From Flavobacterium sp. (lineage in GTDB: Bacteria > Bacteroidota > Bacteroidia > Chitinophagales > Chitinophagaceae): a DNA stretch of 39,452 bases. A program made the position numbers and the translations under genes. Below, piece after piece: positions 3,193 through 34,408 of the stretch. Position 1 is the first letter of the stretch, and every line of letters starts with the position of its first letter. The DNA is taken from the NCBI GenBank assembly GCA_030053925.1, contig JASGCX010000033.1, positions 1 to 39,452 of the forward strand, written 5' to 3'. The notes beneath the pieces were generated by a model. It ran no database searches and was not told where the DNA came from. It worked only from the letters and a program-made list of their open reading frames with translations.

Positions 3193-4209
3193 ATGAACTT
3201 AGAAAATAAAATACTTTTATATACCACACCGCAAGGCAATATCAACATAAGTGTACGATTTGAAAACGATACTTTTTGGCTAAACCAAAAGGCAATGGCA
3301 ACACTTTTTGGAGTAGAAGTACCAGCAATTAGTAAGCATTTAAAAAATATTTATACAGAAGGCGAATTATCAGAAAATGCGACTATTTCCAAAATGGAAA
3401 CAGTCGTAAATAGAGGTTTTAGAGGCGAGGTTTCAGAACCAATTGATTTTTACTCACTAGATGCTGTAATTGCCGTTGGATACCGAGTAAACAGCAAACA
3501 AGCCACTGCGTTTAGAATTTGGGCTACCAATACGCTTAAAGAATTTATTATTAAAGGTTTTGTGTTAGATGATGAACGATTAAAACAAGGCAAAACTTTT
3601 GGTAAAGATTATTTTGATGAATTACTGCACAGAATTAGAGAAATTAGGGCAAGTGAAAAACGCTTTTATCAAAAAATTAAAGACTTATTTGCATTAAGCA
3701 ACGATTACCAAACTACCATAAAAGAAACCAACACCTTTTTTGCTTTTGTACAAAACAAATTATTGTTTGCTGTTACTAAACAAACAGCAGCGGAATTAAT
3801 TATTAGCCGTGCCGATGCAAAAATGCTAAATATGGGTTTAACCACCTTTAAAGGCAGTAGAGTAAGAAAAGAAGATATTTTTATTGCCAAAAATTATTTA
3901 TAAGAAAAAGAAATAGATACTTTAAATAGATTGGTTTCGTTGTTTTTAGACACAGCAGAGTTGCGAATACAAAACGAAGAAATACTGACTTTGGATTATT
4001 GGAAAGCCGAAACCGATAATTTGTTAGCATTTAGTAAAAAGCCAATATTAGAAGGAGCAGGAAACATTAGCCACGACAAAATGGAAAAAACAGTTGGTAA
4101 AATATATGCCGATTTTGATGCAAACAGAAAAAAAATGGAAGCACTAGAAGAAGACGAAATAGAACAACAAGCCATTAAAAAATTAATGCAAAAAGCAACA
4201 AAAAAATAA
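3193..4209 (+). pseudogene. rhuM: RhuM-family protein interrupted by an in-frame TAA
   Basis: The track splits this gene into 3193-3903 (236 aa) and 3931-4209 (92 aa). Both are in the same frame, and translation through the single TAA at 3901-3903 gives one continuous product of about 338 residues, the usual RhuM length. The N-terminal half has the family pattern FWLNQKAMATLFGVEVPAISKHLKNI, an HTH-like segment, followed by 'FYSLDAVIAVGYRVNSKQATAFRIWAT'. The C-terminal half includes 'RLVSLFLDTAELR' and 'MEKTVGKIYADFD'. RhuM was first named in a Salmonella pathogenicity island; its biochemical role is not established, and homologues often sit beside restriction systems. It is convergent with the restriction operon here. 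The gene is either nonsense-mutated, read through, or carries a sequencing error. No frameshift is present and the downstream part keeps coding character, so the lesion is recent. Confidence 0.8.
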
Positions 4210-4496
4210 TAAGGTAATTGAACTTAAAAAAATAACAGTTAAAAAATTATAATCGGTTCAACTTAATTATGCGGGAGATTAGAAGCACAAATGTTAAATA
4301 GAAATACAAATGCTCAATTTAGCACTTCAGCCCCCATTTTGCCAAATCCCTTTTAGGCGATTGTCATTTTTTCGGTCTGTCTGTTTTTCGTTTTTGTTGG
4401 CGTGTTGTGGTGTGTTGGGTTGGTTGCTCTTTTGCATTTATTTGTGTTGGTTTTGTGCGTTAGCAAAAAATGCAAAAGAGCTATCAAAAGCGTTGG
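4210..4496. repeat. Intergenic sequence, member A of a dispersed degenerate family
   Basis: No gene is supported here; the 76-residue track ORF at 4310 is low-complexity and looks spurious. Three words recur elsewhere in the window. AAATGCTCAATTTAGCAC (4308-4325) recurs at 38193-38210 with one change. CCATTTTGCCAAA (4334-4346) recurs exactly at 39303-39315 and is followed in both cases by a TAGGC and GTCTGTC context. AAAGCGTTGG (4487-4496) abuts the stop codon of the ATPase gene and recurs at 10202-10211 and, as GAAGCGTTGG, at 39437-39446. This stretch forms one flank of the restriction operon. Confidence 0.65.
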
Positions 4497-6185
4497 CTAT
4501 TTCCTCTTTATTTCAATTAGTTTGTCCAATAAAGTTTTAAAACCATTAAAATGATTGTCGTTAAATAATGGGTCTTGGCATTTTGTAGGTAAGTCAGCTT
4601 TTAATTTGTCTTTTACTTTGTTAGGGAACATTTTAAAAGTTTCGTCAGCACCTTTAATGATTTTAAGAGCTTCCTTAAAAATTAAATTCTTTTTAAAATA
4701 GTCTTCAACTACAAAGTTTGTGGTTTTCCAATTTTTTATTTTTGGGTACAATAGAAAATATATGTCTTTCTTTTTTTCAAAATCGAATGTCAGGTCTAAT
4801 GATTTACCTAATGCTTTTTCTATTGGGTTTTTCCCTTCACTATCTCTATCCAACAAAGCAATTATTTTTTGACCTGCTTTAGGTGTAAATTTATTCATAA
4901 AATTTTCTAACCCTTCAGCTCCGCCCATTGGAAAATATTCAAACTCCAAATTTTTATATTTATTGAATTTTGGTTTTAGCCTTTTTAATGCTTCAGAAAT
5001 GTAGATTTTGTCATATTTACCTTCAACAAGTAGAATGTCTTTATTTGAATTTAGAAAAATATTTTGGTCTTGATAAGTCCATACTCCTTTTGTCAATTCG
5101 TAAACAATTTCCTGTTTTGCCTTTGCTTCAATTTGTGCATCATTATTTGGCTTTTTGGTTAGCATTGTAATATGCTTTAAGTCAAAATTATGTGTCAATG
5201 TTGGCGAATGTGTGGTAATTATATTTTCTCGGTTGGTGTACTTTGAAAGAAGTTTTTGAATTTCTTCTTTTCTTGAAAGATGAATATGACTGTCAGGTTC
5301 GTCCAATAAAATCAAAGAATTTTCATCACCTACAACTTCTAGAATAAGCATTATTAAAAGCAATTTCTTTTCTCCTTCGCTTAAACATTCTGCATTAAGA
5401 TTTGTGTTGTAATTTATTTCAATTTTTGTAATGAGTTTATCGTTTTTGGGCATAAAGGATGCCGATAAGTAACGGAAAACTTCAATTTCTGAAAGATTAT
5501 TTAAAAGGTCTTTGAAAGTTGCTAAATCAATTTCAATTGTGGCTTCTTTTGCAGGATTTAATGACATTACAAAATTGGTGACTGGATTTGGGGATTTTAA
5601 AAAATCATTCAGTTTTGCAATGTCAAAAGTAAATTTAACTTTATTAAATGTTGTAATATTTAAAGTGTTTTGGCAAAAATCTCTAATGTCGGTAAAAACC
5701 GAAAAATCATAAAAATGAAGTGTAATTAAAGCAATGTCCCAATAGTATTTGTTGATGTAAATTAAATTAGAATTTGGAATAGTTGCTCCACGAATTGCCT
5801 TTATATATTCTTCATAAAAAGGCCAATAATATTTATCCCACAAACGTGTTTCTTCGCCACTATACGAACTTATCACTTGACTTGGCAAGTGTTCGGGTTT
5901 CAAATTATCTACTACATCGTTGATTTTGAAAATATACGTTCCGTTTTCATAATTAACTTCTACTTTGTAAGTGTCTTTGTTGTATTCAAGTTCGTAGTTA
6001 AATGCTGGATTGTATTTTCTGTCATAAAGACCTGCAAATATTCCGCTAATGGCTTCTAAAATGTTGCTTTTGCCACTTCCATTGTTTCCAATGAGTACCG
6101 TGATGCCTTCTTTGGTCGAAAAATCAATTTCAAAAGCTTCAAGGTTTTTAAACCGTGTGTTTATGTTTAATTTTTGTAATCTCAT
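4497..6185 (-). CDS. ABC/AAA-type ATPase with C-terminal TOPRIM-like (DUF4435-type) domain, OLD/PARIS-like
   Basis: The 562-residue protein has an N-terminal ABC-type ATPase: Walker A GNNGSGKS (residues 33-40), signature LSEGEKK (about 268), Walker B LILLDEP (291-297) and a switch His in TTHS (324-327). After this, 'DILLVEGKYDK' (Glu388) and 'ALLDRDSEG' (Asp446, Asp448) have the Glu...Asp-x-Asp layout of TOPRIM-like nuclease domains, as in OLD nucleases and DUF4435 proteins. In the PARIS defence system the ATPase (AriA) and the DUF4435 effector (AriB) are often separate; here both parts are in one chain. The start codon overlaps the hsdS stop by one base (TAATG), so it is translationally coupled to the restriction-modification genes. 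The role in defence is inferred from this context. Nuclease activity is not shown by sequence alone, and an OLD-family assignment is the main alternative. Confidence 0.8.
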   Translation of the reverse strand: MRLQKLNINTRFKNLEAFEIDFSTKEGITVLIGNNGSGKSNILEAISGIFAGLYDRKYNPAFNYELEYNKDTYKVEVNYENGTYIFKINDVVDNLKPEHLPSQVISSYSGEETRLWDKYYWPFYEEYIKAIRGATIPNSNLIYINKYYWDIALITLHFYDFSVFTDIRDFCQNTLNITTFNKVKFTFDIAKLNDFLKSPNPVTNFVMSLNPAKEATIEIDLATFKDLLNNLSEIEVFRYLSASFMPKNDKLITKIEINYNTNLNAECLSEGEKKLLLIMLILEVVGDENSLILLDEPDSHIHLSRKEEIQKLLSKYTNRENIITTHSPTLTHNFDLKHITMLTKKPNNDAQIEAKAKQEIVYELTKGVWTYQDQNIFLNSNKDILLVEGKYDKIYISEALKRLKPKFNKYKNLEFEYFPMGGAEGLENFMNKFTPKAGQKIIALLDRDSEGKNPIEKALGKSLDLTFDFEKKKDIYFLLYPKIKNWKTTNFVVEDYFKKNLIFKEALKIIKGADETFKMFPNKVKDKLKADLPTKCQDPLFNDNHFNGFKTLLDKLIEIKRK

Positions 6186-7540
6186 TAGCTAAAAATTGCT
6201 TTTTCAAATCCTTCTTCTGCTTCCAACAAGATTTTGGTCTTAAGCTCTTTATTTTTGACTATGCTGGATTTTATCAATTTTATTTTTTCAATAACTTCTT
6301 TTTGTAAATTGATTGGTGGTATTATTACAGGATAATCTTTAATCATTTGTGCATTAAGATTTGGTTGATTATTTCCACTTGCCATTTCTCGTAATCTATG
6401 ATATTCTCCAATTAAATAAGCCCAAAGAAAATCGGTTAAAATTATAGAATTATCAATATTGAATAAAACGGCACAAGCTTGATTTGTAGAAGCATCAATT
6501 CCTAATTTAGCCGTTCTTCCTCTTGTTAAACCTTGACCGTACATCGCAATTATTAAGCTATCTTTCGGATAAATTTTTGCACTACTATTTTTTATAGCTT
6601 CTTCTGTTATTTTTTCTTCGGTGTCATATATTATGTCATTAATAACTTCACCAGTTTTTATCCAAGGAATATTTCCATTATAATATTCGCTTCGTGCTCT
6701 ACTTGGCGTGCCACCGCTACTTACAGTGCATAATTCCTTGATTTTTCTGAACTCAAATGAACTGGTTACATTTAAATTGTTAGGTGTTTTATTCTGTTCA
6801 ACACCCCATTTATTCAATGTAGAATAATCTACTAATTGCAAGTATTCGCCAAGCTTATTCTTATTTTGAACCTTGTTTTCCTGATAACCTAAAATATCAA
6901 ACAAGTACTTTTCAATTTCTCCGCCTAAGTCAATTGATTGTTTAGATAAAAATTCAGCATCCTCTATCTTTTGATAGTATGTATTTACTAAAATTTCTTG
7001 CTCAATAAGTGAGGGTAATGGTATTTGTATATCAAGAAATTCGTCCTGTTTAACTCTTGCCTTTGAAATTCCTGTTGTTTTATTATTGAGTAGTTTTTTG
7101 AATGCACTGCTCCTTAGAATTTTATGAAGAAACTTACCACTAATTCTATTTTCATCAAACTTGAATGTAGGATATTCAGAACTGACACCAAATGGAACTA
7201 ACCCTTCTTCGTGAAAGTAAATACAACCGTGTCTTACATTTATCTTAGAATAAATTATTGCATTTTCGGGAACCAAATTAACATTGCCTTTATAGCTATG
7301 TATTTCTTCAAATGGCCTTAAAAAGAGCTCACCTGAAAAATTGATTTTAGAAATGATTTGCCATTTATTTTTAATCAACCCCTCTTTACTAATAGGTTTC
7401 CTATATGGTATTAAAATATCTCTAAGTGTTACAACTTTTTTAAATTTTAACTCGCTGGTTGTATAATAGCGTTTAACATCCCAAAGGTTTATATCAGAGA
7501 AAGGTATTAGCTTCAAATATGTATTTGTCAACTCTTGCAT
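6185..7540 (-). CDS. hsdS: Type I-like restriction-modification specificity subunit HsdS
   Basis: The 451-residue protein has two target-recognition domains joined by helical spacers. The first half ends with 'QIPLPSLIEQEILVNTYYQKI', and the second TRD begins near 'IKELCTVSSGGTPSRARSEYY' with the typical 'IPWIKTGEV' and 'NQACAVLF' motifs. It closes with 'PPINLQKEVIEKIKLIK', the second conserved helix. Each TRD reads one half of a bipartite DNA target and positions the methyltransferase. It overlaps hsdM by one base and the ATPase gene by one base, so the three are co-translated. The first TRD is less like textbook HsdS than the second, consistent with TRD shuffling. The DNA target cannot be predicted from sequence alone. 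Confidence 0.92.
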   Translation of the reverse strand: MQELTNTYLKLIPFSDINLWDVKRYYTTSELKFKKVVTLRDILIPYRKPISKEGLIKNKWQIISKINFSGELFLRPFEEIHSYKGNVNLVPENAIIYSKINVRHGCIYFHEEGLVPFGVSSEYPTFKFDENRISGKFLHKILRSSAFKKLLNNKTTGISKARVKQDEFLDIQIPLPSLIEQEILVNTYYQKIEDAEFLSKQSIDLGGEIEKYLFDILGYQENKVQNKNKLGEYLQLVDYSTLNKWGVEQNKTPNNLNVTSSFEFRKIKELCTVSSGGTPSRARSEYYNGNIPWIKTGEVINDIIYDTEEKITEEAIKNSSAKIYPKDSLIIAMYGQGLTRGRTAKLGIDASTNQACAVLFNIDNSIILTDFLWAYLIGEYHRLREMASGNNQPNLNAQMIKDYPVIIPPINLQKEVIEKIKLIKSSIVKNKELKTKILLEAEEGFEKAIFS

Positions 7541-9813
7541 TAATGGTTTGATTTGCTGTAAAACACTTCTGGCTCTGAAACGATATTATCGATTATTCTT
7601 ACTCTACCGATTTCATCATTTGCAATTTGGTAATTGATTTCCTTGATATAATTTGGCCACAGTTTATTTTCTTCACGATATTTTCTAAACTCTATTGCTA
7701 ATGGTTCTAGTTCATTCTCTATTTGTGCACCAGTTGTACTAATACCTGCTTTTTTCACTTCAGCAATTGGTATTTGATAATTAAACTCCCTTTTTATTTG
7801 TGCTTTAATTTCATAGAGTATATTTTCTTCAATTTGTTTTAATTCTGCTCTTAGTTTCTTTTTTTCTTCTGTGCTTGGGGCTTCCTTTCCTTTCAATTCA
7901 AGTTTTGCAAGAATTGGTTTTGTTTTTGGCTCATACTTTTTGGTAACATCTTTTTCTGCTTTAGTAGAAACTGATTTCCATTTTTTGACTTCTTCCTCTG
8001 TAAATTTTTTGAAAAATAGCAAACTTGGTTTCACAGTCGCACCACTTGCAATAAATACATCTTGCGGAATTGAAGTTATGAGTATAATTTTTGCCCTGCT
8101 TTCCACAAAATCTCTTATTTTTTGCAAATTGGTATTATTCAAAACGCCTTCGGGCAATACAATACCCATTCTACCGCCTGGCTTCAACAAGTTCAAACAG
8201 CGTTCTATAAACAGCACTTCGGTAAGCGAACTCATACTTCCGGTTTCGTATAAGTCCAACAGTGGTTTATCGATATTATCGTTTACTTGTTTTAGTGCTT
8301 CATCGTAATCACTTCCGTATCTTTTACGGTACTTTTTAATTCTTTCAATGTCTGTGTATTTGTCGGCTTCTGTAATTTTCAATGATTTCTCAACCCTGCT
8401 TCCAAACGGTGGATTGGTGAGGATAATATCAAAACGATTTTCAAAAATTCCATTTACATTTAAAAGTCCGTCATTGTGATGTACTCCACCGTGTCCGTCC
8501 CCGTGCATAATCATATTCATTTTTGCAGTTCGGCTCATTCTTGGATTAGCATCTGTTCCGAAAATGCAATCATAACTTAATTCCCTTATTCTGCTCTTTG
8601 AGTTGTTGATGTCTAGTTCTGCATTAAGTTTAGAAAACAAATCATTTACAGTTTCGTCAATTTCGGCTTTCTTTTTATCGCTTAGTTTTTCGTAGGCATC
8701 ATTATAATAGTCTTTTTTGATTTTTTCCTTTGCAAGATGGATTTCGTTTTCAATTTTTGCTCTTACATATTCAAAAGCCTTAATTAAAAATCCACCGCTA
8801 CCGCAACAAGGGTCGCAAATTATTTCGCTTTCTTGTGGGTCTAAGACATCTACAATAAAGTCTACTATTGTTCGAGGTGTAAAGAATTGTCCTAATTCTC
8901 CTCTAAATGTTTTACCAAGGAATTGCTCAAAGGCAATACCTTTTACATCGTCAGATGTTGTGGAAAGGTTGTAAATCTGCAATTCTTCAACGATTGCTTC
9001 AAAACTATTTTCTCTTACTCTGATAATTTCCGTTTGTTCAAAAAGGTCATCATCTTTGAAATCTTCTTTTGTTTGCTCAAACAAAAATTGATAGAAGTCT
9101 TTGCCGTCTTTTGGTTTGTATTTCTCGTAGCTAGCTTTATCATTCTTGAAAGCTTCCTTTGAGAAAATTTGGTTTTCTGAATTGCTTCTTTCGTAACGAA
9201 TTTTTATAAAAAGGATTTTGCTTATTTCGTCAAAAGCCGCTTCTGGTGAAAGTTTATCGTTGTTACGAATAATGTTGTGGCACTTAAAAAGTAGTTTTGA
9301 GAACTCATCTCTTGTGAAAGCTTTTGTTTGCTTTAATAACTCGTTTATTTTCTTTTCGTCAGTAACTGTTTTGGCATCAGGAATATTTACAACTTCTTCA
9401 AGTTTCTTTGGGATTTTACCTTTAACAACCTTGAAAATTCTTGTTTCTTTTAAGTTAGTTGTTACGAAAAAGTCAGCACCCGCCCAAGAAGCGTAATTAT
9501 AACCTTGAAAATAATCTTCTTCACGAACTGTAATGTGTTCGGCTTTACATTCTACAACTATTATTGGGCTATTGTTTTCTCTCTTGTCTTTTACATTTTT
9601 CCAAATTACAATGTCCGCCATTGCTCTGCCTTGTCCACGTTGCGAATTGCTCACTTGGATTTCTTGAGCCATTTGCTCTAAGTCAAAGCCGTAATTATTT
9701 ACAAGTCTGCAAATATATTCTTGACGAACTTGTTCTTCTGGTTTCAGTACTAACCATTCGTCATTTCCTTTTAGCGGTACTTTTATTTTATTGTTTTTGA
9801 TTTCTACTTGCAT
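7540..9813 (-). CDS. hsdM: Fused restriction-methylation subunit: HsdR N-terminal-type PD-(D/E)XK nuclease plus N6-adenine methyltransferase
   Basis: The 757-residue chain joins two activities. Residues 1-150 match the type I HsdR N-terminal nuclease fold: Asp67 in MADIVIW, then Glu88-x-Lys90 in VVECKAE, followed by YFQGYNYA, which resembles the Q-containing motif after the catalytic core. Residues about 160-480 are the HsdM helical domain and N6 methyltransferase, with SAM motif DPCCGSGG (334-341) and catalytic NPPF (467-470). The C-terminal part is a charged helical region. There is no SF2 helicase motor in this protein or nearby, so it cannot be a standard type I enzyme. The layout (nuclease-methylase plus separate specificity subunit) resembles BcgI-like type IIB/IIG systems. 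It starts 2 bases after the xre stop and overlaps hsdS by one base. Confidence 0.92.
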   Translation of the reverse strand: MQVEIKNNKIKVPLKGNDEWLVLKPEEQVRQEYICRLVNNYGFDLEQMAQEIQVSNSQRGQGRAMADIVIWKNVKDKRENNSPIIVVECKAEHITVREEDYFQGYNYASWAGADFFVTTNLKETRIFKVVKGKIPKKLEEVVNIPDAKTVTDEKKINELLKQTKAFTRDEFSKLLFKCHNIIRNNDKLSPEAAFDEISKILFIKIRYERSNSENQIFSKEAFKNDKASYEKYKPKDGKDFYQFLFEQTKEDFKDDDLFEQTEIIRVRENSFEAIVEELQIYNLSTTSDDVKGIAFEQFLGKTFRGELGQFFTPRTIVDFIVDVLDPQESEIICDPCCGSGGFLIKAFEYVRAKIENEIHLAKEKIKKDYYNDAYEKLSDKKKAEIDETVNDLFSKLNAELDINNSKSRIRELSYDCIFGTDANPRMSRTAKMNMIMHGDGHGGVHHNDGLLNVNGIFENRFDIILTNPPFGSRVEKSLKITEADKYTDIERIKKYRKRYGSDYDEALKQVNDNIDKPLLDLYETGSMSSLTEVLFIERCLNLLKPGGRMGIVLPEGVLNNTNLQKIRDFVESRAKIILITSIPQDVFIASGATVKPSLLFFKKFTEEEVKKWKSVSTKAEKDVTKKYEPKTKPILAKLELKGKEAPSTEEKKKLRAELKQIEENILYEIKAQIKREFNYQIPIAEVKKAGISTTGAQIENELEPLAIEFRKYREENKLWPNYIKEINYQIANDEIGRVRIIDNIVSEPEVFYSKSNH

Positions 9814-27970: not shown

Positions 27971-28306
27971 CTATTTAGTAGATTTAAAATGACCCCTAAG
28001 TACAATAAACGATAAACCTAAAACATTTAAAGTTGTTGTTCCCAAGAGTGAAATCAACACAGAATCTGATAAGTGTAAAAATTTGTTGTTAGTAATTAGC
28101 ATTGAAAGAACAGCAAGTAGCCAAATAGACACTGTTATTGCTGTCCAAATGGCTAGCCATTTTCTATCTTTTGTATCAGAACCGTATCTGATAGCTTCTA
28201 ATTTTTTTACTTGAATTGGAAGATTGTCCGAATCAATATCTAAATCATCCTGCGAACTAGATTGAACTTTAATTAAATCAACTAAATCTTTTGACTTGCT
28301 AGACAT
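27971..28306 (-). CDS. Small two-helix membrane protein, candidate toxin of a Panacea-type pair
   Basis: I do not recognise the 111-residue family by name. It has a charged acidic N-terminal half (about 1-47) and two transmembrane helices (WLAIWTAITVSIWLLAVLSMLI and VLISLLGTTTLNVLGLSFIVL) with a short basic tail. The gene overlaps the upstream Panacea-like gene by 8 bases and ends 4 bases before batB. Panacea-domain antitoxins are known to neutralise diverse toxins including small membrane proteins, so a toxin role is a fair inference from context. It could equally be a sensor or accessory of the Bat proteins. Confidence 0.6.
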   Translation of the reverse strand: MSSKSKDLVDLIKVQSSSQDDLDIDSDNLPIQVKKLEAIRYGSDTKDRKWLAIWTAITVSIWLLAVLSMLITNNKFLHLSDSVLISLLGTTTLNVLGLSFIVLRGHFKSTK

Positions 28307-28763
28307 TAACTTCTAAAAAATAATTGGTGATGAAATTATCTGGTATCTGTTGATTCCAGTCAAAACCAGGTTGCTTAATTGTTTTGTCCCAAGGGCTTCC
28401 TTTCATGTGCGACCAATCGGATAATTGTGATGCCGTATAACCTGAATATTTATTAATAATATCTGTAAATACTTCTGTAACAAGTTCATCGTTGGCAATT
28501 TCTAAAAAATCGTTATCAGCAATTGAAATGATTGTGCCATAATTTATTTTATTTCTCGTTCTTGGAAAAACAGGGCCATACGGCCAAGCTTTTGGTGATT
28601 CTTTTAATAAAACATGGTTGTACTTCGATAAAAAATAACCATAGGCAATAAAGAGCATCTTTTGCACCTTAGTTACGTTTAGCACAATACCCTGCTTATT
28701 GGCTAAAGCCATTAAATATTTTGCAGCAATAACGCTATCATATTGTTTTAAAGTAGGCAACAT
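28299..28763 (-). CDS. Panacea/SocA-like (DUF4065) protein, candidate antitoxin
   Basis: The 154-residue protein follows the DUF4065 pattern: 'AAKYLMALANKQGIVLNVTKVQKMLFIAYGYFL' at the N-terminus, then 'ESPKAWPYGPVFPRTRNKI', a hallmark of the domain, and 'YTASQLSDWSHMKGSPWDKT' near the C-terminus. Members include SocA and the promiscuous Panacea antitoxins. It overlaps the following small membrane-protein gene by 8 bases, the expected layout of a toxin-antitoxin pair. Its upstream neighbour, the beta-lactamase gene, ends 55 bases before it on the same strand. Confidence 0.8.
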   Translation of the reverse strand: MLPTLKQYDSVIAAKYLMALANKQGIVLNVTKVQKMLFIAYGYFLSKYNHVLLKESPKAWPYGPVFPRTRNKINYGTIISIADNDFLEIANDELVTEVFTDIINKYSGYTASQLSDWSHMKGSPWDKTIKQPGFDWNQQIPDNFITNYFLEVNV

Positions 28764-28817: not shown

Positions 28818-29663
28818 CTATTTTTTTCCTTCAAAAAAGCCATAACCCTTTAAAATGCGTTTTAGCATATCAATACGTAAGTTGGCCATTGGTACATTTT
28901 TAGGGGCTTCTACATTTAATACAAAAAAGTAGGGGTGTCTATTTTCTTCTATCCAACCAACAACCCAACCTAGTTGGGTATTTTTTTCTGTGGTACCAAG
29001 CCCTGTTTTATAAGCCAAAGTATAGTTGGTATTATTTTCACGCACCATCATTTTTCTTACAATCTCTTGACTTCTACGTTGAAAACCTAATTGATAAAAG
29101 TACAGTTTCTTTACAATGCCTAGTTGTTCATCGGCAGTTATTTTTAAAGAATTATCTAACCAAAAAGTATCAATTGCTGTTTTAATTTTTGCAGTGCCAT
29201 AGTGCATGGTATCTAAGTATTCTTGCATGGTGTCTTTGCCTATTCTTTTGGCTAGTTCTTGGTAGTAAGGTACTGCCGAGTATTCAAAAGCCTCGGACAT
29301 GGTAAGGTCTTTGTTCCAGTTTTTGGCGGTATCGCCGTTGGCAAAAGTTCTAATTTTTCCATCCCATTTTATCACCATTTTTTCGTTTGCCACTTTACCG
29401 GTTTCTATACCTATTAGGCTGTTTACAATTTTAAAAGTAGATGCTGGTAAAAATCCCGTGTCTTTGTAACGATTAAGGTTGTAAATAGTAAATTGCCCTG
29501 TACCATTATCAAACATGGCAAAGCTGCCTATTACTTTATTGCTATCGAAAATGGGTTTTAAGTTGTTATCAATTGTAACATTATTAGGGCTACAAGCTGC
29601 TAATACGCTTATTAGTGTTATACTTGTAACTATTTTTAACAGTGTGAATGACGTGTATCTCAT
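28818..29663 (-). CDS. Class D (OXA-type) beta-lactamase family lipoprotein
   Basis: The 281-residue protein has a lipoprotein signal (lipobox LAAC, Cys about 24) and a serine beta-lactamase fold of class D: nucleophile motif STFK in LPASTFKIVNSL, second motif SAV in YSAVPYYQEL, and KTG in LAYKTGLGTTEKN, followed by 'QLGWVVGWIEE'. 'FWLDNSLKITADEQ' is typical of the omega-loop region. The usual YGN motif reads YGT here. It would hydrolyse beta-lactams in the periplasm, but a cell-wall transpeptidase or sensor role such as BlaR-like penicillin binding cannot be excluded. It diverges from the P450 operon across only 51 bases. Confidence 0.88.
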   Translation of the reverse strand: MRYTSFTLLKIVTSITLISVLAACSPNNVTIDNNLKPIFDSNKVIGSFAMFDNGTGQFTIYNLNRYKDTGFLPASTFKIVNSLIGIETGKVANEKMVIKWDGKIRTFANGDTAKNWNKDLTMSEAFEYSAVPYYQELAKRIGKDTMQEYLDTMHYGTAKIKTAIDTFWLDNSLKITADEQLGIVKKLYFYQLGFQRRSQEIVRKMMVRENNTNYTLAYKTGLGTTEKNTQLGWVVGWIEENRHPYFFVLNVEAPKNVPMANLRIDMLKRILKGYGFFEGKK

Positions 29664-29714: not shown

Positions 29715-31064
29715 ATGTCAACAACAGATAAGCAAATACCAGCAATAACATCAACCAAGCTTTTTAAGTATGGCTTTGGTTTGGTAAACAATCCTTTAAA
29801 AGCCATTTCCGATATTGTAGATGCCTACGGCGATATTGCTTCGTTGAAGATTTCTAAAATTGGTTCTATTGTTTTCTTAAATCATCCAGATTATGTAAAG
29901 CATGTTTTAAAAGATAATCAAGATAATTATTCTCGGCGCAAAGCCGTTAAGCAACCATCTTTTAGTGCCCTGCAAGATTTGCTTGGTAATGGTATTTTTA
30001 TGAGCGATGGTGCGCAATGGGAACAACAACATACCATGTTGCGCAATTTATTTTCGCCCACATCTATTGCAAGCACTTTACCCATAATTGATGAAGAATT
30101 AACCCTACTAACCAAACGTTGGCAAACACAAATTACCAAGAAGCCAATTATTGATGTTGAGCAAGAACTGCATTTGCTGATGTTGCGCATCATGTTACGT
30201 ACACATGTTTGTAGCAATTTTCTTTTTCCGTTTAGCGATATTTTGGCAACGCTTAAAAACTTCATGAATGTGTCTAATTCAAAAAAAATATTTTTGGCAC
30301 AGTTAAAAGCCTTTGTACTAAAGCCTTTGGGCATAAAGTATCATTACAACAAGCCGCAGCAATCGCTTAAATGGTTAATGGCTTTTGTAGATGAATTGAT
30401 AGAAGCCTTGCTGCAACGTGCTTTTATACCAAATGGTTTGTTTGCTACAATGTTGGTTGATTATAATAATGGTAAGGTTTGTAAGCAAGATATTAAAGAC
30501 CAATTGCTCAATTTTTTATTTGCTGGTTTCGATACTACTTCTACAGGCATCACCTTTACGTTGTACAATTTAGCCGCACACCAGCCTATTCAACAATTGG
30601 TAAAAAATGAAATTGTAGATACCGCCACAAAACAATTTCCGGTACTTGAAAAGGCAATTAAAGAAACCTTACGATTGTATCCACCCGTGTGGTCGTATGC
30701 TAGAGAAGCCATTGCCAACGATGTAATAGATGGTTATTGCATACCAGCTAAAACCCTTGTGCTTATTAGTTCTTATGCCTTGCACAGGCATAAAAATTTT
30801 TGGCAAAATGCCAACGAATTTAACATCGATAATTTTGAGAAAGAAAATTTTAAAGGCAAAAATTTTGTGTACATACCTTTTGGGCAAGGCAAGCGAATGT
30901 GTATTGGTAGGGCTTTGGCCGATTATCAAATGATGACCATTGTACCACACTTGCTTAGGGTATTTCATTTTGCAACTGTAGATGATAAAAAGCCAATTAT
31001 TAATCCCAACATCATCATCAAAGCCACCAAATCAATTAAATTACGAGTAAGTTTGGCATCTTAA
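29715..31064 (+). CDS. Cytochrome P450 monooxygenase (first copy)
   Basis: The 449-residue soluble P450 shows the I-helix 'LLNFLFAGFDTTSTG' (AGxDT, oxygen activation), the K-helix KETLR (ExxR), 'FNIDNFEKENFKGKNFVYIPFG' and the heme-binding loop FGQGKRMCIG with the axial Cys. No N-terminal membrane anchor is present, so it is cytosolic. It uses an external redox partner not found in the window. It heads a three-gene operon with an acyltransferase (25 bases on) and a second P450 about half identical by eye, indicating gene duplication. The substrate is unknown; fatty acyl or small lipids are possible. Confidence 0.93.
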   Translation: MSTTDKQIPAITSTKLFKYGFGLVNNPLKAISDIVDAYGDIASLKISKIGSIVFLNHPDYVKHVLKDNQDNYSRRKAVKQPSFSALQDLLGNGIFMSDGAQWEQQHTMLRNLFSPTSIASTLPIIDEELTLLTKRWQTQITKKPIIDVEQELHLLMLRIMLRTHVCSNFLFPFSDILATLKNFMNVSNSKKIFLAQLKAFVLKPLGIKYHYNKPQQSLKWLMAFVDELIEALLQRAFIPNGLFATMLVDYNNGKVCKQDIKDQLLNFLFAGFDTTSTGITFTLYNLAAHQPIQQLVKNEIVDTATKQFPVLEKAIKETLRLYPPVWSYAREAIANDVIDGYCIPAKTLVLISSYALHRHKNFWQNANEFNIDNFEKENFKGKNFVYIPFGQGKRMCIGRALADYQMMTIVPHLLRVFHFATVDDKKPIINPNIIIKATKSIKLRVSLAS

Positions 31065-31089
31065 ATTTCATCTTCCGAATTGTATAACA

Positions 31090-31857
31090 ATGTCTAACAA
31101 AAAGTTTACTGTTAAACGCTTTCCTATTGATAAAAAAATTGTAGCAGATATTGCGGCATTTAATAAGTATGTCAATTTAATGCACGGGCTTTTTCAAATA
31201 GACATTGCCCACATTAGGCAGCAAATAAAAATTGCCAAGAAAGAACAGAACCTAAATGTTTCAATTTTAGCTTGTTTGCTGTACTGTTTTGCGCAAGCAT
31301 TAGATAAATACAAAGATGCTTTTGCTATGGTGGGCAAAGGCAGCAAATACTATCAGTTTGAAGAGGCAGATGTGTTTTTTCCTTTTGAATTACAGCAAAA
31401 TGGCGAGAAAATAATTTGGTACAAAATAATTAGGCGAGTTAATAAAAAAACCATTGTTGAACTAGAAGATGATTTAAAGAAAATGCTACAAATGCAGAAA
31501 ACCTTTACAAAAGCCGAGCGTTTTTTTATGCGTTTTCCTGGTTTTTTAAGACGCTTGTTTTATGGTAGAACCATGCGTAACCCTTTAATACGAAAGAGTT
31601 ATGTAGGCAACGTGTATTTTAGTTCTACTATTCATAGTGGCAATACACGTGTTATTTCGTATGGTTTACCTTCGCATTTTCATTCGGTTGGTATGTTTAT
31701 TGGTACGTTTATAGATGTTAAAAGTATGGAGCCACAAAAGCCCAATGCCAATATTGTAGGCGCTACATTATCGCTAGATCATTTAATAAGCGATGGATCA
31801 ATGCTTGCAAGATTAATTCGTGAGTTCGTTTTTCAAGTTGAAAACTTTAAACTTTAG
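31090..31857 (+). CDS. Freestanding E2/CAT-like acyltransferase
   Basis: The 255-residue protein resembles the catalytic domain of 2-oxoacid dehydrogenase E2 subunits and chloramphenicol acetyltransferase. Near the C-terminus is the active-site motif HxxxDG in 'LSLDHLISDGSMLARLI', preceded by 'VGNVYFSSTIHSGN' and 'PSHFHSVGMFIGTF'. It lacks lipoyl and peripheral-subunit-binding domains and has no dehydrogenase partner genes, so it is not part of a pyruvate dehydrogenase complex. Lying 25 bases after one P450 and 2 bases before another, it probably acylates the P450 product or its precursor. The donor (acyl-CoA or carrier protein) is unknown. Confidence 0.8.
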   Translation: MSNKKFTVKRFPIDKKIVADIAAFNKYVNLMHGLFQIDIAHIRQQIKIAKKEQNLNVSILACLLYCFAQALDKYKDAFAMVGKGSKYYQFEEADVFFPFELQQNGEKIIWYKIIRRVNKKTIVELEDDLKKMLQMQKTFTKAERFFMRFPGFLRRLFYGRTMRNPLIRKSYVGNVYFSSTIHSGNTRVISYGLPSHFHSVGMFIGTFIDVKSMEPQKPNANIVGATLSLDHLISDGSMLARLIREFVFQVENFKL

Positions 31858-31859
31858 TA

Positions 31860-33218
31860 ATGGTACATCCGCCTAAAAATATTCCTTGGTATAAAATTCC
31901 CTACCATTCTTTTAGTATCCTTAAAAATCCGTTGAAAGCCATTTATCAAATGGTAGAAAGCTACGGCGATATTTTTGCTTTTAAGATTGGCAACATGCGC
32001 AGCATCATCTTTTTAAACCATCCCGATTATGTTAAGCATGTGCTTAAAGATAACGTAGATAACTATTCTAGAGGAAGCGCCTTAAAAATGTCTACTACGG
32101 GTTTAGAAGAAATGCTTGGCAATGGTATTTTTATAAGCGAAGGCGACGATTGGGAATTTCAACATAAGCTATTAAAGCGTTTGTTTTCGCCTGCTGCAAT
32201 AGAAAGTACCTTACCTGTTTTGCAAGAAGAAATTGATAAGTTTATACAAAAATGGGCTAATGCAGTGGTTAATAATCCTGTTGTGAATATTGAATACGAT
32301 ATTCATTTACTGATGTTGCAAATTATGCTACGCAGCCATGTTTGTAAAAATTATCCATTCAATTACAAAGAAATTTTTGACACCTATAATGCACGTATTG
32401 AAGCTTCAAGTTGGAACGTTGGTGCGGTTTCGGAAGCCAAATCTTTTTTTTTAAAACCACTTGGTATTAATTATGCTTACAATAAGCACCAGCATCACAT
32501 AAATAAGCTAAACGCATTTTCTAATAAACTTGTACAAGCGTTACTTAATGGCGAGTTTGAACCCGTTGGTTTATTTGCTCTTATGCTTGGCGAGTTTAAA
32601 GAGGGGCGTGTTACACAAAAAGACATCCGTGACCAACTCTTCAATTTTTTGCTTGCAGGCTTTGAAACCACCGCTACTGCTATTTCTTGGCTATTGTACA
32701 ATATTGCTGCGCAGCCAAATTTGCAAGCACTTTTAAAAGATGAATTAAAGGTTACAGCCACAGCAAATGACGATGTTTTAAAGCAAGCATCTTTATTGCA
32801 ATTGGCAATTAAAGAGTCGCTACGGTTATATGCACCTGTTTGGTCTACCGCCCGTGTTGCAGTTAGAGACGATATTGTTGGAGGTAAGTTTATAAAAGCT
32901 AAAAGTATTGTGGTTATTAACTCTTACGCATTACATAGGCACAAAGCGTTTTGGCCATCGGGCAATAAATTTAACATTGCCAACTTTGAGAAAGATAATT
33001 TTAAAGGTAAAACATTTGCCTATATACCTTACAGCCAAGGAAAGCGAATTTGTCTTGGTATGGCTTTAGCCGATTATCAAATTCAAACTATAACAAGTGC
33101 TTTGTTAAAGGCTTTCAATTTTGAAACTACCTCTAACAAAGCACCAGAAATTAAAGCAAACATTATTATTAAGGCTAGCCCATCTTTACAATTAAAAATT
33201 AGTAAGGCGGGTGCTTAA
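31860..33218 (+). CDS. Cytochrome P450 monooxygenase (second copy, altered heme loop)
   Basis: The 452-residue protein is a paralogue of the first P450: same N-terminal 'SFSILKNPLKAIYQMVESYGDIFAFKI' pattern, I-helix 'LLAGFETTATAISW' (AGxET), KESLR and the axial Cys. The heme loop reads YSQGKRICLG, where the consensus has FGxGxRxCxG, so the first two residues differ (YS for FG) while Cys, Arg and the glycines are kept. It begins 2 bases after the acyltransferase stop and ends 2 bases from the convergent kbl stop. Divergence between the copies suggests distinct substrates or successive steps. Confidence 0.93.
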   Translation: MVHPPKNIPWYKIPYHSFSILKNPLKAIYQMVESYGDIFAFKIGNMRSIIFLNHPDYVKHVLKDNVDNYSRGSALKMSTTGLEEMLGNGIFISEGDDWEFQHKLLKRLFSPAAIESTLPVLQEEIDKFIQKWANAVVNNPVVNIEYDIHLLMLQIMLRSHVCKNYPFNYKEIFDTYNARIEASSWNVGAVSEAKSFFLKPLGINYAYNKHQHHINKLNAFSNKLVQALLNGEFEPVGLFALMLGEFKEGRVTQKDIRDQLFNFLLAGFETTATAISWLLYNIAAQPNLQALLKDELKVTATANDDVLKQASLLQLAIKESLRLYAPVWSTARVAVRDDIVGGKFIKAKSIVVINSYALHRHKAFWPSGNKFNIANFEKDNFKGKTFAYIPYSQGKRICLGMALADYQIQTITSALLKAFNFETTSNKAPEIKANIIIKASPSLQLKISKAGA

Positions 33219-33220
33219 AC

Positions 33221-34408
33221 TTATTTTAAAACGTTAAGTTGTTTACCAACTTTTATAAACGCAGCAATAGCTTTATCCAAATGTTGTTGGTTGTGTGCTG
33301 CACTCAATTGTACACGAATACGAGCTAGCCCTTTTGCCACAACCGGATAGAAAAAACCAATCACGTATATACCTTCTTCTAACAAAGCGGCTGCAAACTG
33401 TTGGGCAACTGTTGCTTCGTACAACATAATAGGTACAATGGGGTGGTCGCCAGGTTGTATATTAAAACCCGCTTCGGTCATTTTGGTTCTAAAATATTTG
33501 GTGTTGTTTTCTAGTTTATCTCTAAGTTCTGTGGTTTCTGTAAGCATATCAAGTACAGCTATCGATGCGCCTACAATGCTTGGTGCCAAAGTGTTTGAGA
33601 ATAAATAGGGCCTTGAACGTTGACGTAAAAGTTCTATAATTTCTTTTCTACCCGATGTAAAGCCACCACTAGCGCCGCCTAATGCTTTACCTAAAGTGCC
33701 GGTAATAATATCTATTCTCCCCATCACGTTTCGGTACTCATGTGTACCTCTACCGGTTTTGCCTAAAAAACCTGATGAGTGACATTCATCTATCATCACA
33801 ATTGCATTGTATTTATCTGCAATATCACAAATTTTATCAAGCTGTGCAATGGTGCCATCCATACTAAAGCTGCCATCTGTTACAATTATTCTGCTACGCA
33901 AATGTGCGGTTGCTTGTAGCTTTTGTTCCAAGTCATCCATATTATTATGCTCGTAGCGATAGCGTTGCGCTTTGCACAATCGTACACCATCTATAATGCT
34001 TGCGTGGTTTAGTGCATCGCTTATAATAGCGTCTTCTTCATTAAACAAGGGTTCAAATACACCACCATTCGCATCAAAAGCGGCAGCATATAGTATGGTA
34101 TCTTCTGTACCTAAAAAGCTGGCAATCTTCTGTTCTAGTTCTTTATGAATGTTTTGCGTACCGCAAATAAAACGCACGCTACTCATGCCATAGCCATGTG
34201 TATCTATTGCTTTGTGTGCTGCTTCTATTACTTTAGGATGAGACGATAAACCCAAATAATTATTAGCGCAAAAGTTTAAAACCTTTTTGCCATTTACTAC
34301 TATTTCAGCACCTTGTTCGCTAGTAATGATGCGTTCTTTTTTAAATAATCCAGCGTCATCTATTGTTTGTAATTCTTCAGCAATTCTTGCTACAAATTTT
34401 TCATTCAT
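33221..34408 (-). CDS. kbl: Glycine C-acetyltransferase (2-amino-3-ketobutyrate CoA ligase)
   Basis: This PLP enzyme links glycine and acetyl-CoA in threonine breakdown. The 395 residues begin 'IAEELQTIDDAGLFKKERIITSEQGAEI', then 'VLNFCANNYLGLSSHP', 'SVRFICGTQNIHKELE', the PLP-binding Asp in MIDECHSSG, and the Schiff-base Lys in GTLGKALGGASGG. All match Kbl; serine palmitoyltransferase and AONS are close relatives but the N-terminus is Kbl-like. No tdh is adjacent. It ends 2 bases from the second P450, with no visible terminator between the convergent genes. Confidence 0.94.
   Translation of the reverse strand: MNEKFVARIAEELQTIDDAGLFKKERIITSEQGAEIVVNGKKVLNFCANNYLGLSSHPKVIEAAHKAIDTHGYGMSSVRFICGTQNIHKELEQKIASFLGTEDTILYAAAFDANGGVFEPLFNEEDAIISDALNHASIIDGVRLCKAQRYRYEHNNMDDLEQKLQATAHLRSRIIVTDGSFSMDGTIAQLDKICDIADKYNAIVMIDECHSSGFLGKTGRGTHEYRNVMGRIDIITGTLGKALGGASGGFTSGRKEIIELLRQRSRPYLFSNTLAPSIVGASIAVLDMLTETTELRDKLENNTKYFRTKMTEAGFNIQPGDHPIVPIMLYEATVAQQFAAALLEEGIYVIGFFYPVVAKGLARIRVQLSAAHNQQHLDKAIAAFIKVGKQLNVLK

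Follow-up and report, generated by a model that had tools for sequence, protein, structure and literature searches.

The locus analyzed here raises the question of what two cytochromes P450 and a freestanding acyltransferase do in one operon, and which of these genes form the unit retained in relatives. The triplet of P450a, the acyltransferase (AT), and P450b (Table 1) lies in a stretch of 39,452 nucleotides, referred to below as the window. The open reading frames, their lengths, and the gaps of 25 nt between P450a and AT and of 2 nt between AT and P450b exactly match those listed in a sequence-only reading of the locus, which took the triplet for one pathway unit.

Table 1. Positions, in window coordinates, of the three genes and of their motifs
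Feature	Position	Strand	Description	Basis
P450a	29715..31064	+	449 aa; soluble P450; canonical heme loop; PF00067, E 5.6e-72	
P450a heme-ligand loop	30879..30908	+	FGQGKRMCIG (Cys396)	alignment
AT	31090..31857	+	255 aa; freestanding E2-like acyltransferase; PF00198, 26 bits	
AT helical insertion	31504..31614	+	AT residues about 139-175; contains ERFFMRFPGFLRRLFYGRTMRNPLIRK	alignment and model
AT catalytic motif	31780..31797	+	HLISDG (His231)	alignment
P450b	31860..33218	+	452 aa; directly 3' of AT, the position common to relatives; PF00067, E 1e-65	
P450b heme-ligand loop	33030..33059	+	YSQGKRICLG (Cys398), altered; identical in L019	alignment

Both flanking genes, a divergent class D beta-lactamase-like gene on the left and a convergent glycine C-acetyltransferase gene on the right, are on the other strand and hence cannot belong to the operon. 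The latter gene (Kbl, 33221-34408) is rejected as an operon partner, being convergent, a glycine C-acetyltransferase equivalog, and below the cut-off for serine palmitoyltransferase. The same triplet order with the same two flanking genes is seen in L019, a Chitinophagales MAG that is a near relative (its AT is 95% identical). The dN/dS values between the window and L019 (0.114 for P450a, 0.039 for AT, and 0.069 for P450b) are in the range of those for the genes on either side (0.092 and 0.036). Given the retention of the triplet and its flanks in L019, and purifying selection on all three genes, the triplet is a real, functional operon.

Both P450s align with almost all of the PF00067 profile and are 51% identical to each other, in agreement with their initial description as paralogs; they are the only P450s found in the 3.9 Mb, 98% complete genome. 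Both have the ExxR motif, the I-helix motif AGx(D/E)TT with its acid-alcohol pair, and the Cys loop, as is expected of the P450 superfamily. The FxxGxRxCxG signature is followed by P450a, while P450b has Tyr for Phe and Ser for Gly. The equivalent Phe-to-Tyr change in P450 BM3, F393Y, leaves turnover very similar to that of the wild type (PMC9820634), hence, by analogy, P450b is likely active despite its altered heme loop. A decaying copy is ruled out by the same BM3 result together with the low dN/dS of P450b and the identical loop in L019. In the phylogenetic analysis, the P450s of Chitinophagaceae group in a single clade (100/99), within which P450a, P450b, and the other P450s of the genus form a sub-clade (100/99). 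Judged from this tree, one P450 was duplicated or gained in this lineage, and either P450a or P450b may be the original copy. The best plasmid P450 is about 27% identical.

The sole profile matched by AT is PF00198, and this match is weak, just above the curated cut-off (26 bits against 23). The sequence-only reading had described a freestanding acyltransferase with an HxxxDG motif, and indeed HLISDG is present, while lipoyl and peripheral-subunit-binding domains are absent. The AF2 model of AT (mean pLDDT 90.3) matches the E2 catalytic cores of 2-oxoacid dehydrogenases along its whole length (PDB 3mae, TM about 0.7), and it retains the HxxxDG His as well as a Ser that lines up with the active-site strand of E2. 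A phmmer search of the PDB with the single AT sequence yielded nothing useful; a profile search of the PDB did give matches. The AT profile also matches type III chloramphenicol acetyltransferase, weakly (E 2e-4 to 9e-4); AT shares the superfamily and the HxxxDG motif with this enzyme, but is clearly closer to E2 cores both in sequence profile and in fold. Unlike E2, however, AT has neither a lipoyl nor a binding domain, lacks the Arg of the DHRxxDG motif, carries a cationic, helical insertion about 30 residues long, and is encoded by a gene paired with a P450; no E1 or E3 partner was recognized in a reading of the list of window ORFs. The three other PF00198 genes of the genome, none of them on the operon contig, encode E2s with lipoyl-type N-termini (L099-L101). 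With true, lipoyl-bearing E2s encoded elsewhere and no lipoyl domain in AT, a role of AT as a pyruvate dehydrogenase component is ruled out, as had been proposed from the outset.

Among 16 AT relatives, the His of HxxxDG is invariant; the Asp and Gly vary, with Asp replaced by Asn in three ATs (L017, L018, and L025) and Gly by Ala in one. This variation, together with the E2-core fold, would suit AT being a scaffold or remnant of an oxoacid dehydrogenase E2 that has no transferase role and is linked to the P450 incidentally. We consider this very unlikely, given the invariant His, the lowest dN/dS of the triplet, the missing lipoyl domain in a genome with real E2s elsewhere, and a distribution among genomes of the family identical to that of the P450 (see below). 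Moreover, the title of PDB entry 1dpc names an Asn in the active site of a true E2; by this analogy, as far as a title can tell, the Asp-to-Asn replacement need not abolish AT activity.

The helical insertion is present in all 16 aligned freestanding ATs and in none of the three E2s that the window's genome encodes. In the AF2 model it comprises helices 141-146, 151-163, and 165-172, and its signature across the freestanding ATs is roughly ERxFxxLPxFxRxxYxxxxxNPLxRK. The insertion of the window AT has nine Lys/Arg, one Asp/Glu, and eight aromatic residues in 37 positions, and it contains the part of AT that is most amphipathic. From this composition and the model, we infer that the insertion may make membrane or lipid contact.

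The neighborhood survey finds the arrangement again elsewhere, as a triplet in L019 and as AT followed by a P450 at other loci. The triplet itself is ruled out as the conserved unit: only the window and L019 show a second P450, and most relatives have AT followed by a single P450. The scheme of oxidation, acylation, and a second oxidation, earlier read from the gene order, is thus not supported; what stands of the proposed pathway unit is the pair of AT and P450, linked and co-inherited in relatives. The gap between the two genes is 3 nt in L013, 14 nt in L017, 4 nt in L018, 1 nt in L025, and, counted from the first ATG, about 10 nt in L021 and L107. In members of the genus, the pair is located behind gpmI in L021, L107, and probably L013, as is the AT of L014; no neighbors besides the pair itself are common to the AT-P450 loci. 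The two ATs and the P450 of genome G252 lie on different contigs. Short ORFs of simple peptide repeats (SSMRANG, VRWTTRM) occur near the P450 or AT in L013:6648-6944 and L015:3772-4152, and are perhaps tied to how these genes moved within the genus.

Among 299 genomes of the family Chitinophagaceae, five have AT at E<=1e-8, and precisely these five have the P450 at E<=1e-60; within the genus, AT is present in 6 of 13 genomes. In a sample of 396 genomes of the phylum, a relative of AT is found in 14, the P450 type in 18, and both in 7 against 0.64 expected (hypergeometric p 3e-7, a statistic that ignores kinship and is inflated by common descent). Counted by genera, 5 of the 11 with AT are shared (p 6e-4, likewise ignoring kinship). 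We are highly confident that AT and the P450 are functionally linked.

The P450 and AT trees broadly agree. Closest to the Chitinophagaceae ATs are the ATs of G361 and G590 (with long branches and moderate support), and these genomes also hold members of the sister clade of the P450, unlinked to AT, being either some 58 kb distant or on a different contig. ATs also adjoin P450s of a different subfamily, which falls in the other half of the tree: in G553 and G685 (L048, L109) the P450 is followed by AT after 1 nt, and in G310, G329, and G423 (L050-L052) the two genes are adjacent and convergent. Hence, as far as the trees go, the association of P450 and AT probably has more than one origin, or else is old and has seen its P450 replaced. 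Other freestanding ATs (L040-L047, L049) have no P450 neighbors. Freestanding relatives of AT with 21-23% identity are found on haloarchaeal plasmids (L095-L098), with no P450 neighbor in the four examined; conversely, one P450 region of Haladaptatus has no AT. These four relatives are annotated as "2-oxo acid dehydrogenase subunit E2", a name that is probably misleading, since their length leaves no room for a lipoyl domain.

Several observations bear on the substrate. The closest P450s without linkage to AT are those in operons with genes similar to cyclopropane-fatty-acid synthase (CMAS): in G554, G661, and G475, sister P450 genes overlap or abut a CMAS gene downstream (L072:7663-10294, L074:7725-10291, and L075:7643-10209), and each such pair is possibly an acyl-chain modifying couple. 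These tightly coupled two-gene operons resemble the pair studied here, with the difference that the partner is a CMAS methyltransferase instead of AT. No CMAS gene is found in the genome of the window, so CMAS is rejected as a partner there, the P450 being all that the sister operons have in common with it. In G361, AT is followed after 3 nt by a methyltransferase gene, and in L048 the P450 and AT are followed by a fused fatty-acid-hydroxylase/GH3 protein. The nearest solved folds to the AF2 model of P450b (pLDDT 88.8) are CYP184A1, CYP97A3, and CYP102A1 (TM about 0.76-0.84), which bind or act on long hydrophobic molecules; CYP184A1 has also been solved in complex with oleic acid. At 19-22% identity in structure alignments, these neighbors do not fix the substrate, and P450b falls outside CYP102, CYP184, and CYP97, the families with solved structures, by the identity criterion of about 40%; the window P450s further differ from this type in having no fused reductase and in being linked to an acyltransferase. 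Taken together, the CMAS pairs, the methyltransferase of G361, the fusion in L048, and the fold neighbors of P450b point to long hydrophobic substrates, and a lipid-type substrate fits this comparative and modeled evidence. As a separate observation, L048:6871-12779 and L109:6044-11955 each hold a four-gene operon of P450, AT, the fatty-acid-hydroxylase/GH3 fusion, and an enolase-superfamily enzyme; of 129 genomes of the order concerned, 2 have this operon, which appears to make up a small pathway for a lipid or some other metabolite.

The presence of CYP97A3, along with CYP97C1, among the closest sequences and folds also brings in tailoring of carotenoids or other terpenoids, in which the P450 would hydroxylate a carotenoid end ring and AT would attach a fatty acid to that ring as an ester. 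A strong match to lycopene cyclase is found in each of the five Chitinophagaceae genomes that have the pair, and in G237 it is about 4.6 kb from the pair. However, two members of the genus that lack the pair, G204 and G290, also give a strong match, and only a weak or partial one is found in G361, G590, G554, G661, G475, and G423, all of which have related P450s; at the other loci no carotenoid gene was recognized adjoining the pair. As lycopene cyclase does not track the AT and P450 genes across the phylum, a strict tie to carotenoid synthesis is not supported, and the carotenoid or terpenoid reading in general, though to be taken seriously as a rival, seems to us rather improbable. Somewhat less probable still is a detoxification pair, in which the P450 would oxidize foreign compounds and AT would acylate them as a bacterial phase I/II couple, possibly beside a beta-lactamase for that reason. 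The self-contained pair, its sporadic distribution, and the lack of pathway neighbors would agree with such a role, as would the sequence similarity of the P450 to CYP3A and the class D beta-lactamase-like gene that lies divergently next to the operon both in the window and in L019; yet this gene is absent from the other loci, no linked regulator or efflux gene is common to the loci, and the similarity to CYP3A is a trait of the whole P450 class.

The reading that we prefer, at about an even chance on the comparative and modeling evidence, is a self-contained tailoring module of AT and P450 for hydroxylation and O-acylation of a long-chain lipid or a similar hydrophobic substrate. Here, the P450, reduced by a ferredoxin and a ferredoxin reductase presumably encoded elsewhere, would add a hydroxyl group to what may be a long-chain lipid, a fatty acyl chain, or a similarly long hydrophobic molecule; AT, docking on the membrane or the greasy substrate via its cationic, aromatic helical insertion, would then use His231 to acylate that hydroxyl from a thioester donor, in the simplest case acyl-CoA. 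The two enzymes would thus share a substrate, with hydroxylation as the putative first step, and a second P450, where present, could act on a second position or a second substrate. That no redox partners are encoded nearby, as noted initially, agrees with the genome's ferredoxin and ferredoxin-reductase matches, all of which are off the operon contig; a freestanding [2Fe-2S] ferredoxin (L082:1396-1770) and an FNR-type reductase (L084:1153-1884) are candidates for serving P450a and P450b.

The sequence-only reading had also suggested a small lipid or metabolite pathway that matches no known one. A search of open-access papers found no description of a P450-AT pair, in line with the second part of this suggestion; as to the first, the lipid nature of the substrate goes no further than fitting the comparative evidence. 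A more specific version, which we put forward tentatively and with clearly less confidence than the module itself, is a previously undescribed Bacteroidota pathway in which an E2-core acyltransferase with a membrane-binding insertion, freed from lipoyl chemistry, acylates P450-hydroxylated acyl chains to yield branched ester lipids, the partnership having arisen more than once. If the preferred module reading is right, a hydroxylated and esterified lipid is predicted in these bacteria. The comparison reduces an odd triplet to a minimal two-gene unit, points to a distinct subfamily of freestanding ATs hidden beneath the annotation of E2 dehydrogenase subunits, and connects P450s with probable modification of lipids in a phylum on whose P450s we found little literature.

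Other features of the window are of separate interest. The class D beta-lactamase-like gene (28818-29663) encodes a lipoprotein scoring 239.8 bits against the NCBIfam class D cut-off of 250. A defense-like cluster at 3193-9813 comprises a PDC-S05 candidate, an AAA/TOPRIM-type ATPase, a type I specificity subunit, and a type I methyltransferase, with no HsdR seen among the ORFs. Between a VWA-type gene and the beta-lactamase gene, a SocA/Panacea-domain gene (28299-28763) overlaps a small gene with hydrophobic stretches (27971-28306); since both are absent in L019, the region 27971-28763 looks like an inserted Panacea-type toxin-antitoxin pair.
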